Source: Bacteroidia bacterium (GTDB lineage Bacteria; Bacteroidota; Bacteroidia; AKYH767-A; 2013-40CM-41-45). Taken from it: a stretch of DNA of 32,411 nucleotides. The stretch lies in assembly GCA_020852075.1 (NCBI GenBank), contig JADZBN010000044.1:1-32411 (forward strand), read 5' to 3'. A program made the position numbers and the translations under genes. Positions within the stretch are counted from its first letter, which is position 1, and the number at the start of each line of letters is the position of its first letter. Below, in pieces: positions 18,240 through 25,005 of the stretch. The notes beneath the pieces are model-generated. The model was given only the letters and a program-made list of their open reading frames with translations, did not search any database and had not been told where the DNA came from.

Positions 18240-20123
18240 TTAATAATTCCGGTATTGATTGTACAGTTCCTGTACAAATGATTGTGCATGGTGAAATAAT
18301 GTGTCCCTGGGCTGTATGTGCGTACTGTCAACCACAAAATCTTTTTTTGCATACGAGTACGCAAACCAGTCTTTCCCTTCAATCCATCCCAGTACCTGCT
18401 CCACCTGGTAATATGCAAAGTCCTTTGCAGTGGGATTCAGCAGGTTTTTACTCCACGAGAACCCCGATGCAGGCAAACCCAACTGGGGCATTAAGGTGGC
18501 AGGAATGTCATGGTGTCCGCCCAGTTTAGTATTTCTTGTGTCTTTGAATTCATGCTTCAGTACATCCCCGTATAGCAGTATGGGTATATGCCTGCTGTTT
18601 GGGAAGACCTCATCGCGGTGGAAAGGCAACTGGTGGCCATGGTCTGCAACCAGGATAAACAACGTATTCCCATACCATGAAGTGTTCCTGGCTATCCTGA
18701 AATATTCGCCGAGACATGCATCCATATAAGCTGCAGAATTCAGAAATCTTGCCGCTTCATCCTTTCCGGGAATCCGTTTGGGTCCCGGGACATCAAAAGG
18801 TTCATGATTGGACAAGGTCATCAATACCGATACAAATGGGGGCGATTCCGTGTTGAGATCACGGATCTGCCTGTCAAGAACATACTCATCATAAACACCC
18901 CAGCGGCCCTGTGGTATATCCGAGGGAAAATCCCTCTCGTCAATGATCCGGTCAAATCCCTGATTGATCAGGTAGGCATCAAGGTTTGAAAAGTTGTTTT
19001 CCCCTCCATAATAAAAGGAATTGCGGTAGTTGTGATTTCGCAGTTCCTTTATCAGGGAAGGAAGTCTGGAGGACTTATCCATGGAACGCATAATGGAATG
19101 AAACGGCGTAGCGGGAAATCCGTTGAGGACAGAGACAATGCCCTGATCGGTTCTGCTTCCGCTTGAATAGATGTTTGAAAAAAGAAGGCCGTCACAAATC
19201 AACTGGTCAAATACCGGAGTGACACCCTGTTTACCTCCCATCTCGCCAATCAGGTCTGCAGTAAAGCTTTCCAGTATAAGTATGACAATATTGGGTTGGC
19301 GGTTGCTCAGGATTTCGGGAAATGAATCACCCGGGCAACGGAAAAGTTGATTTACGGTTTGTCTTGCCTCTTGCTCCGGTATGGTATTGAAAAGATTTCC
19401 GTCAGAAAGCCTGGCCTGATGAATATCATAGGCAAGGTGCCAGGCAGGATTGAGGGCTGTCATATTCAGAAGCTGTACCGGTGAATAATACACGGTGCTT
19501 TCATTCATCGGATTTAATTGCAGTCCACCCCTCATTGCCAGAACAAGTATTCCGGACATTACAGGAATAATTACTGTTTTGTATCTCAGGTTAACAGGAT
19601 TCTCAAATGATAAATTTTTTCCGGCAAGCAGACGAAACATTTTCCATTCCAGCCAGACAGTCACGGTTAGGCCTGCGATGAGTACAACAACCTGCAATGC
19701 TGTAAGTGAAACAAAAATTTCAGCAGGATCCGAAAGGTAGGTCAACGCCCGGTAGTTGATCATACTGCCCCAAAAATGAAAGACCAGGATGTTCCCTGCC
19801 AGCAGCAATGTCAGCAGTAAAATCAAAACCTGGTGATAGCGGTACCAGACCTTATAGATTCTTGAAATTCCGGTAAAAAGGAAAATAATAAAAATCAATG
19901 CCGGAATTAAAAATACATATCCCAGTACGGATATGTCCATACGAATCCCGTGCGCAAATGCGGGAAGGATTTGTGGCAATGAAACGTGCTCCGGCGCGGG
20001 CCTGTTGGTAAAAAGAAACACCAGTCGCCAGCAGAAAAAAAAGATCACATAAAACAATATGATCTTTAAAATATGTTTCAGGTATTCTTTCACTTCCGGT
20101 GGATAGTATCCGGCCGGAATCAA
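18240..20123 (-). CDS. LTA synthase/sulfatase-family (alkaline phosphatase superfamily) membrane protein, phosphoglycerol-transferase type
   Basis: N-terminal multi-TM region, then NIVILILESFTADLIG, GSRTDQGIVSVLNGFPATP, YYGGENNFSN, LILVADHGHQLP. Track start is TTG at 20123, overlapping the preceding stop; the true start is uncertain. Confidence 0.85.
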   Translation of the reverse strand: MIPAGYYPPEVKEYLKHILKIILFYVIFFFCWRLVFLFTNRPAPEHVSLPQILPAFAHGIRMDISVLGYVFLIPALIFIIFLFTGISRIYKVWYRYHQVLILLLTLLLAGNILVFHFWGSMINYRALTYLSDPAEIFVSLTALQVVVLIAGLTVTVWLEWKMFRLLAGKNLSFENPVNLRYKTVIIPVMSGILVLAMRGGLQLNPMNESTVYYSPVQLLNMTALNPAWHLAYDIHQARLSDGNLFNTIPEQEARQTVNQLFRCPGDSFPEILSNRQPNIVILILESFTADLIGEMGGKQGVTPVFDQLICDGLLFSNIYSSGSRTDQGIVSVLNGFPATPFHSIMRSMDKSSRLPSLIKELRNHNYRNSFYYGGENNFSNLDAYLINQGFDRIIDERDFPSDIPQGRWGVYDEYVLDRQIRDLNTESPPFVSVLMTLSNHEPFDVPGPKRIPGKDEAARFLNSAAYMDACLGEYFRIARNTSWYGNTLFILVADHGHQLPFHRDEVFPNSRHIPILLYGDVLKHEFKDTRNTKLGGHHDIPATLMPQLGLPASGFSWSKNLLNPTAKDFAYYQVEQVLGWIEGKDWFAYSYAKKDFVVDSTHIQPRDTLFHHAQSFVQELYNQYRNY

Positions 20124-22465
20124 TCTTTCACCAGTCGTGCCTTCCGGATATCCGTACCGATTTCCAAAGTTACAAAATAGACGCCTTTTGCCATGCCGGT
20201 CAGATCAACGGAAATCCGGTTAATCCCTTTTTCCAGTTCCTTGCTTGTTTCAAATACTTTCTGACCCTGAGAACTAATGATGGTTATGATTCCCGGTACA
20301 TGGTCCTGAGAATATACAATAACAGAAAGATCATCGTGTGCAGGATTTGGATTCAGGACAACCAGGCCTGCCTGTGATTCAAATTTTATGGGGACCAGGT
20401 CTGAATAGGTATATTTCCCGTCATAATCCGTTTGTTTCAGGCGATAATAGGATACTCCCTGATAGGGTTCTTCATCCACTGCTTTATAAGACAGTGAGAA
20501 GGTACTGTTTCCGGCTCCGGGAACTGAAACCACGGGGGTAAAATTCCTGCCATCCCTGCTCTTTTCAACCGTGAAATAATTGTTATTGATTTCAGTGGCT
20601 GTTGTCCAGGCCAGGTTTACCTGCGTATTATCAGAAACTGCCGTGAAATTCAGCAGCTCAATGGGTGTAGGTACCACGGAGCAATCCAGGGAAGCTCAGC
20701 CTGACAGAAGCCAGCTAAGGAAAAAGCCGCTTCCTCCGGGAGACCATTTATTTACACAAAGCATGTAGGTCTGACCTGTTGTGACGTTTAGTTCATTGGT
20801 CCAGCCATTACCACAGGCATCCTCGCTGTTATCAGAACCGCTGTTATTAAACCCGCAACTGTTGGTATTGGTGGAAATATTCAGAGCACTGTTCATTCCG
20901 GTTGAGGGCGATGAAGAAAGGTTGGCCGCGAAGGAGCAACGAACAGGACTGCCAAGGCTACCACAACCCGAAGTCGGGCCATACAGGGCAAAATCATAAT
21001 CATCGGTGTTGACAGCAGGTGCCAGGTTAAACCCAAGGGTTCCGGAAGAAGCTATGGTAATGGTGTACCAGTTGGAATAATTTTCCGTTGGAATACAACC
21101 CGAAGAGACATCCGATGACAGCCCCGGGCCGGTGCTGGCATCGCTGAAGCTTTGGTTGCTGCATATACCTGTTGACTGCTGACAATCATTGTTGTCTGTT
21201 CCGTTTGGGCCGGCAGCATAGGGGACACAATCAAAGGTAGCTACCCAACCCGGATAGGTTATACTGAAATCTGAAGAAAAGCGGAAGGTCAGGCAACCAC
21301 TCTGATCGGTAGATACAAATGGACCCAGGCCGGCGGCCATACAATTCTGATAGGATGTGCATGTTCCTGAAAAGGTGGAACCCGTCCCGAATTCAGGACT
21401 GTTTTGGGTAGCGCCATTCAGGATACTTAAGCCGTCATAACCACTCTCCGTGGAGAACGAATAAAACTGAACCCTCAGAGCTGTTCCCGGTGTATTGGGA
21501 CAGAAGGTCCGGTAAATGTTGTTGATGTTGGTAGAATAATTGGATCCTGTACCTCCGTTATCCGCATACGTTCCGCCGCAGGTATTGACCATAGAAGCTC
21601 CGACATAATAACCGCCAATCCCTGTAACGGGATGTATATAAGTAGCGGAACCCGAAGGTGGTGTCGGGCAGTTTACACAGGAAATTATGGCCGACCACCC
21701 GGCGCGGACGGTACTGCTGTTGGAAACAAAACGAAAGGTCAGGCAACCGGTGGAGGAAACCAGGGTAGGTGGAAGCGTGGTACCGCTGTACACACCGATT
21801 CTGACAGAGGAAGTATTGGGCCCGTCAAAAACAGTAAGCGTGTCACGGTTTGATTGAGTATTGAATGCGGTAAATACTACCTGGAGGCAGGAACCGGCAC
21901 CTCCGTTTGAACAGAACGTGTGCACCCTGTTTTCATTGTTGGTGTAATTGCCCGAAGGCCCTCCGCTGTCATAAAAAATACCCGCACAGGTATTCGTTAC
22001 CGCTCCGTTTGTCATATTATAATTGCCACTGCAACTTACACAGGAAATGGAAGCCGCCCATCCGCTTCTTGTATTGTTGCCGTTTGAAACAAACCGGATG
22101 GTAATAGAACCTGACATAGCAATAACAGATCCGGGCGATGTGGTTCCGGAAAAATTTCCAATAAGCGGTGCCGCAACAGATGTCCCATCATACAAATAGA
22201 GGTAATCATTTCCTCCCTGCGTCCTGAATGCAGTAAAATTCAGCTGGATGCAGTTCCCCGAGGAAGATGAAAATGTGATGGTATAGTTTTCATTATTTGT
22301 ATAGTTCCCTCCATTGCCGCCTGAATCATAAAATGTTCCGGAGCAGGTTGAAACGGTGGTGCCGTTTGTGGATGCATTCAATAGGTAGGTCTGTGCATGA
22401 GATCCGTAATAACTGAACATCAGGGCAGAGACCAAAGCAAATCTGAAAAGATAACACCTGTTCAT
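20120..22465 (-). pseudogene. CUB-domain repeat protein with T9SS type A sorting domain, interrupted by an in-frame TGA at 20696-20698 (two ORFs: 20696..22465 and 20120..20677)
   Basis: Both ORFs share the same minus frame (22465 and 20677 are congruent mod 3). Reading across the junction gives ...GGSGFFLSWLLSG*ASLDCSVVPTPIELLNFTAVSDNTQVNLAWTTATEINNNYFTVEKS..., the continuous architecture expected of a T9SS cargo. The second ORF starts only at GTG. Signal peptide lies at 22465, three CUB-like repeats follow, and the type A CTD ends LNPNPAHDDLSVIVYSQ...MAKGVYFVTLEIGTDIRKARLVKD. Confidence 0.8.
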
Positions 22466-22706: not shown

Positions 22707-24626
22707 TCACACAATAACCGATTCTCCAACCAGTTGGCGGACGGCATTTTTTATTGCTTCGGTATTAAAATGACATTCCTGGTAGAGTTCCTTCTGCTCC
22801 CCATGTTCTATAAAACGATCCGGAATACCCAGCCTTTGAAGAGAGATGGAATAATTATTGTCCAATATAAACTCCGCCACAGCACTGCCAAAGCCTCCCA
22901 TGATGCAACCATCTTCCACTGTAATAACTTTTTTGAACCTGCCGAAAATTTCATGCAGTAGTTCATGATCAAGAGGCTTGACAAACCTCATGTCAAAATG
23001 TGCAGGGAAAAATCCTTCCGGTGCAAGGTCTTCGCTTGCCTGTATTGCAAAATTACCCGGATGCCCGATCGTAAGAATGGCCACTTCTTCACCGTCACGG
23101 ATCATTCTTCCTTTTCCAACCTGGATTTTTTTGAACGGGGTTCTCCAATTCACCATCACACCATTGCCTCTGGGATACCTGATAGAAAATGGTGAGCGGA
23201 TGTCGTCGAGTTGTGAGGTAAACATCAGGTTTCTGAGTTCCTCTTCGTTCATGGGTGCGCTCACAATCATATTGGGAATACACCGGAGATACGCGATGTC
23301 AAACGCACCATGGTGTGTCGGACCATCAGCGCCTGCAAGTCCTCCCCGGTCCAGACAGAACACCACATGAAGGTTTTGCAGGGCCACATCATGTACCAAC
23401 TGATCATACCCTCTTTGCATAAAAGAGGAATAGATATTGCAGAACGGAATCATTCCGCGGGTTGCCAGTCCTGCGGAAAACGTCACCGCATGCTGCTCTG
23501 CGATACCGACATCGAATGCTCTGTCCGGCATTGCTTTCATCATTATATTCAGGGAACAGCCTGAAGGCATGGCCGGGGTTATGCCAAGGATCTTAGGATT
23601 CATTTCAGCCAGTTCGACAATACTGTGCCCGAACACATCCTGATACTTCGGCGGCTGTGGCTGCGCCGGCACCGGCTTGAAAATTTCTCCGCTGATTTTA
23701 TCAAACAAACCGGGAGCATGCCACTTGGTCTGGTCTTTTTCTGCCAGATCAAAGCCTTTGCCCTTTACCGTAAGGCAGTGCAATAATTTGGGACCGGGAA
23801 TACCCTTCAGGTCACTCATGACTTTAACCAGGCGGTTTACATCATGACCGTCAACCGGCCCGAAATACCTGAACCGCAACGATTCAAACAGATTGCTTTG
23901 TTTAAGTAATGAGGTTTTAATCGCATTTTCAATATTGGAAATAATCTCCTGGGCGTTTGGCCCAAACCGGGAAATTTTACCGAGAATCTTCCAGACCTCA
24001 TCTTTCACCTTATTATAGGTATGCGAGGTAGTAATGTCGGTGAGGTATTCCCTGAGGGCGCCCACATTCGGATCAATACTCATGCAGTTGTCATTCAGAA
24101 CCAGCAGCAGGTTTGAATTTTCAACCCCGGCGTGGTTTAGGCCTTCAAAGGCAAGTCCTGCCGTCAGTGCCCCGTCGCCAATCACCGCAATGTGCTGGCG
24201 ATCCGTTTCGCCCTTCAGGCGTGAGGCAACAGCCATGCCGAGAGCTGCCGATATGGAAGTGGATGAATGTCCCACACCGAAAGTATCGTACTCACTTTCG
24301 CTTCTTTTCGGAAAACCACTGATGCCTTTGTACATCCGGTTCGTATGGAAAATATTTTTCCTTCCCGTCAGAATCTTGTGGCCGTATGCCTGGTGGCCAA
24401 CATCCCATACCAACTGGTCGTAAGGTGTATTGAAAACATAATGAAGAGCGACAGTGAGTTCTACCACCCCCAGGGAAGCGCCAAAGTGCCCGCCATTTAC
24501 GGATACAATATCAAGGATAAAATCCCTCAGTTCCCGGCATACGATGGCAAGGTCCTTTTCCGGGATTTTTCTTAAATCTTCTGGAAAATTAATGTTTTTC
24601 AGCAATTTACCTTGCTTTTGATCCAT
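22707..24626 (-). CDS. dxs: 1-deoxy-D-xylulose-5-phosphate synthase
   Basis: MDQKQGKLLKNINFPEDLRKI...GGHFGASLGVVELTVALHYVF...WDVGHQAYGHKILTGR...GDGALTAGLAFEGLNHAG...DVGIAEQHAVTFSAGLA...RGGLAGADGPTHHGAFD. Start set at MDQK (24626) because a TATCTTTG -7 element is at 24644-24651. Confidence 0.96.
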   Translation of the reverse strand: MDQKQGKLLKNINFPEDLRKIPEKDLAIVCRELRDFILDIVSVNGGHFGASLGVVELTVALHYVFNTPYDQLVWDVGHQAYGHKILTGRKNIFHTNRMYKGISGFPKRSESEYDTFGVGHSSTSISAALGMAVASRLKGETDRQHIAVIGDGALTAGLAFEGLNHAGVENSNLLLVLNDNCMSIDPNVGALREYLTDITTSHTYNKVKDEVWKILGKISRFGPNAQEIISNIENAIKTSLLKQSNLFESLRFRYFGPVDGHDVNRLVKVMSDLKGIPGPKLLHCLTVKGKGFDLAEKDQTKWHAPGLFDKISGEIFKPVPAQPQPPKYQDVFGHSIVELAEMNPKILGITPAMPSGCSLNIMMKAMPDRAFDVGIAEQHAVTFSAGLATRGMIPFCNIYSSFMQRGYDQLVHDVALQNLHVVFCLDRGGLAGADGPTHHGAFDIAYLRCIPNMIVSAPMNEEELRNLMFTSQLDDIRSPFSIRYPRGNGVMVNWRTPFKKIQVGKGRMIRDGEEVAILTIGHPGNFAIQASEDLAPEGFFPAHFDMRFVKPLDHELLHEIFGRFKKVITVEDGCIMGGFGSAVAEFILDNNYSISLQRLGIPDRFIEHGEQKELYQECHFNTEAIKNAVRQLVGESVIV

Positions 24627-24643
24627 ACCCTGTGCAGAGAATA

Positions 24644-24651
24644 CAAAGATA
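24644..24651 (-). promoter_or_regulatory. Putative -7 element (TATCTTTG) for dxs
   Basis: Plus strand CAAAGATA, about 20 nt upstream of the proposed ATG. No clear -33. Confidence 0.4.
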
Positions 24652-25005
24652 AGATTTTCGATAAAACCCGGCATTAGGCGGTTCCGGAATAAGAGTCATA
24701 TAAGGACAGTCATCATTTGGTAGCCGGACAGGAACGAAAGACTCTTTCCCGAATTGCCATGTTTCTGATTTTTTTATACCTCGTTAAACCAACCACCCGG
24801 CCCGTCATCCAATTCCCGCAAATTCCGGTATGAGCCTTGAGGCCATTATATATGTTACAGTTGTATATCCTTGGGAATCCTACTTGTCAAAATACCCCCC
24901 CTGTTGTCACATTCCTGAATAATATTCCCCAATTCATCCTGAAATCAATGTCTTCACCATACCTTCAAGTGATCTGTTGAAATTCGCTTAATTATCTGAC
25001 AAAAA

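Follow-up and report, generated by a model that had tools for sequence, protein, structure and literature searches.

An in-frame TGA interrupts a predicted CUB-domain cargo gene of type IX secretion in a draft Bacteroidia assembly

The window analyzed here, a stretch of 32,411 nucleotides from a Bacteroidia bacterium (GenBank assembly GCA_020852075.1, contig JADZBN010000044.1), contains a gene for a predicted cargo of the type IX secretion system (T9SS), the reading frame of which is cut by a single in-frame TGA. The TGA is probably a consensus error, one wrong base in a draft assembly that is fragmented (below, G000), and the same cause is inferred from other in-frame stops that this assembly contains. 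A base error is considered the most economical explanation, because stops produced by wrong bases evidently occur in this assembly in genes that the cell needs. The cargo gene of the living cell would then be uninterrupted, a sense codon (probably Gly) standing in place of the TGA, and its product would be an ordinary CUB protein, exported by the Sec pathway and secreted by the T9SS.

One gene cut by one stop codon

On the minus strand the cargo frame extends from the ATG at 22465 to the terminal TGA at 20122..20120, with the TGA at 20698..20696 as its single interruption. The open reading frames on both sides (20696-22465 and 20120-20677) share the frame of the internal TGA, and between it and the GTG start chosen by the gene caller the frame reads A S L D C S (six sense codons); both the coordinates and the junction had been given correctly in the original prediction. 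The first part (589 residues) comprises a signal-peptide-like start followed by CUB domains, with a Pfam match to PF00431 of 86 bits. The second part (191 codons) comprises an Ig-like stretch and a T9SS type A sorting domain, recognized by TIGR04183 (38 bits, cut-off 23) and PF18962 (37 bits, cut-off 27). As recorded, the internal TGA parts the sorting domain from the CUB body, and the two are not on one translated polypeptide. The probability of 190 open codons by composition alone is P ~3e-5, and the open frame across the TGA is not due to chance since both flanks match full-length relatives end to end. The search for T9SS components was limited to SprA, for which a match over the cut-off (580 bits, positions 1588-2318 of 2319 only) was found in the genome.

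The relatives compared were five copies from four genomes, all of the family to which G000 belongs: one each in G004, G009 and G010, and two in tandem in G008. They show 50-63% identity over the aligned length, the nearest 63%. In all five both parts are encoded in one frame with no stop, the G010 copy ending at a contig edge. The Gly codons aligned with the TGA are GGC, GGC, GGA and GGA, so that the former Gly codon supposed in the original prediction is probable. The gene order dxs-CUB-sulfatase is kept in G004, G008 and G009. In G008 two tandem cargo paralogs are located between dxs and the sulfatase-family gene (2620-7565 of L118); G000 shows one copy. The downstream part of the interrupted gene has its first ATG not before codon 168 and no signal peptide of its own, hence it does not constitute a secreted protein in its own right.

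Pairwise dN/dS (non-synonymous to synonymous substitution rates) of the tail was dropped as silent on recent relaxation, synonymous sites being saturated against most relatives, and for this reason the ratio of tail to body identity was chosen. It was 0.69-0.79 for the interrupted gene against each relative and 0.54-0.90 among intact pairs. No extra decay was seen in the downstream part and no second stop or frameshift in the cargo gene; the stop is therefore either recent or not real. Since the relatives are uninterrupted, the gene order is conserved and the tail has neither its own start and signal peptide nor decay, the interrupted cargo is, as judged from sequence comparison, one gene with a recent or artefactual stop. 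The single T9SS cargo gene and the recent or erroneous event of the original prediction have thus been borne out, and error, listed there in passing, has become the leading reading.

In-frame stops elsewhere in the assembly

The assembly G000 (250 contigs, 85% complete) was scanned over 0.96 Mb for stops with an open frame of coding character on both sides and no nearby downstream ATG; as a control, 0.80 Mb of the well-assembled relative G008 (6 contigs) was scanned by the identical method. Besides the CUB cargo, four conserved genes, each cut by a single in-frame stop, have been found in G000 (Table 1). The control scan of G008 gave six candidates, in none of which a single Pfam domain spans the stop.

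The TAG in alaS corresponds to Lys in nine of nine aligned relatives, the domain PF01411 runs across it, and the interrupted copy is the only alanyl-tRNA synthetase match in G000. A cell deprived of its sole alanyl-tRNA synthetase should not survive, so the stop in alaS is almost certainly a base error. In pfk, profile positions 129 and 131 flank the TAG, and the genome contains a single match at E <= 1e-40. The weight of the assembly evidence rests on alaS, the contrast in the number of sites being modest. That the stops fall at unrelated residues, and one of them in an essential gene, argues for base errors over recoding.

The count of four sites leaves out the scan candidates L198 and L209. 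Among the remaining candidates L152, L178, L192, L226 and L233 were rejected as they look like ordinary gene boundaries, and L211 as its two sides belong to an ABC transporter and a NUDIX gene. A homology screen of G000 against G008, using genes filtered by coding score, found the stop in the CUB cargo, the rest being stops within start-side extensions or at weak or short alignments. In the enoyl-CoA hydratase gene the codon before the TAG encodes Asp, versus Ala in ten relatives. Contigs C19 and C37 of G000 read as N throughout.

Table 1 Features of the window and in-frame stops found elsewhere in assembly G000
Feature	Position	Strand	Stop	Remarks
Interrupted gene, predicted T9SS cargo	20120..22465	-		781 codons with the internal TGA counted as one; putative signal peptide, CUB domains and a further extracellular region, then an Ig-like region and the sorting domain (type A)
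In-frame TGA	20698..20696	-	TGA	Four relatives have Gly here and one has Asn
Putative signal peptide MNRCYLFRFALVSALMFSYYGSHAQ	22391..22465	-		Judged by eye from sequence
CUB domain PF00431, highest-scoring copy	22052..22348	-		Pfam; another stretch matched too
Por_Secre_tail, T9SS type A sorting domain (PF18962 / TIGR04183)	20153..20350	-		Profile match
dxs (1-deoxy-D-xylulose-5-phosphate synthase), upstream neighbour	22707..24674	-		Conserved in relatives
Sulfatase-family membrane protein, downstream neighbour	18240..20123	-		Conserved; the TTG called as its start shares bases with the end of the cargo frame
Alanyl-tRNA synthetase (alaS)	G000:C60, base 15017		TAG	Context LGNWSFGDYF-K-KEAI
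Phosphofructokinase (pfk)	G000:C3, base 1434		TAG	Relatives Tyr, Phe or Val
Enoyl-CoA hydratase	G000:C100, base 24155		TAG	Relatives Ala or Gly
Membrane-fusion protein, HlyD/CusB-type	G000:C18, base 4887		TGA	Gly in 3/3 relatives

Explanations of the internal TGA

The main alternative to a base error is a recent true nonsense mutation, fixed or segregating, that has made the cargo gene a pseudogene, and we regard it as a serious, though the less probable, possibility. One base turns GGA to TGA, and apart from the stop the gene shows no damage, as would a young pseudogene, its tail to body ratio lying inside the range of intact pairs. The product of such an allele would be a 589-residue protein with the tail untranslated; since the sorting domain has been shown to be necessary and sufficient for type IX secretion (PMC10202324), this CUB protein would be exported to the periplasm and stranded there, not crossing the outer membrane. 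A real mutation is not needed, however, because like stops hit an essential gene and further conserved genes in this assembly. Several considerations weigh against the base error: the data come from one assembly of the species, the excess over the G008 control is small (four sites, the CUB cargo aside, versus none; ~0.08 by length alone), the assembly lacks ~15% of the genome, which leaves a slight possibility of a second alanyl-tRNA synthetase, and a dispensable cargo gene is a more credible place than alaS for a real nonsense allele. In Mycobacterium smegmatis, resequencing attributed 28 of 73 interrupted genes to sequencing errors (PMC1852416); our literature searches on premature stops in metagenome-assembled genomes gave no results.

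It seems very improbable that the TGA is real and read through (by a suppressor tRNA, selenocysteine or a leaky context), some full-length cargo being made, although bacteria are reported to have in-frame stops conserved under purifying selection (PMC7918605) and both TGA sites, in the CUB cargo and in the membrane-fusion protein, fall at Gly positions. TGA is a normal and common stop in G000, ending 153 of 321 open frames of at least 300 codons, which upholds the earlier exclusion of genome-wide reassignment. The suppressor tRNA proposed for a search in the original prediction did not appear, no TCA anticodon being present among the 31 tRNAs found, and selenocysteine was rejected as neither SelB nor tRNA-Sec was detected over the cut-off in G000; these absences are not absolute because the genome is ~85% complete. 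The RNA fold around the TGA is no better than that of shuffles (z -0.96), and a stop is found at this site in none of the five relatives. The TAG stops elsewhere replace Lys, Tyr/Phe and Ala/Gly, so no single decoding rule fits the stops. Still harder to believe is that the lineage tolerates in-frame stops by efficient readthrough (e.g. by an unseen suppressor), the stops in alaS, pfk and the cargo gene being real and decoded. Phase variation, also raised in the original prediction, was rejected in its slippage form, since the change is a substitution and there is no repeat tract at the TGA site. Least credible of all is a pair of separate genes in which GTG 20677 would be the start of the second. 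This GTG is indeed present six codons past the TGA, but its product could not reach the periplasm in view of the missing signal peptide and the lack of an ATG before codon 168. The ortholog alignment advised in the original prediction revealed five single, fused genes and no naturally separate ones, which refutes separate genes for the ancestral state.

Significance and relation to known systems

One base of a draft assembly is enough to mimic a biological split, and the practical lesson is that essential single-copy genes of an assembly should be checked for similar stops before an interrupted gene is interpreted. If it were true that the stops are real and decoded, this would mean an unusual stop-codon tolerance; nothing in the analysis supports decoding.

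The case shares with interrupted coding sequences of bacterial genome records the single frame, the one in-frame stop and the intact orthologs (PMC1852416), and the intact orthologs together with the interrupting stop in the G000 copy place it in this category, the causes of which are mixed, some being sequencing errors and others true mutations (PMC1852416). It differs in that it comes from a fragmented draft assembly and is known from the consensus sequence. With the conserved in-frame stops for which readthrough has been suggested (Belinky et al. 2021, PMC7918605) it has in common a stop in an otherwise intact coding frame; those stops were counted if shared by orthologs of at least two species, whereas the cargo TGA occurs in no relative. 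In architecture it resembles T9SS type A cargo proteins (TIGR04183 / PF18962), in the putative signal peptide (by eye), the extracellular CUB domains, the C-terminal sorting domain and the SprA match in the genome, the difference being the TGA between body and tail in the G000 record.
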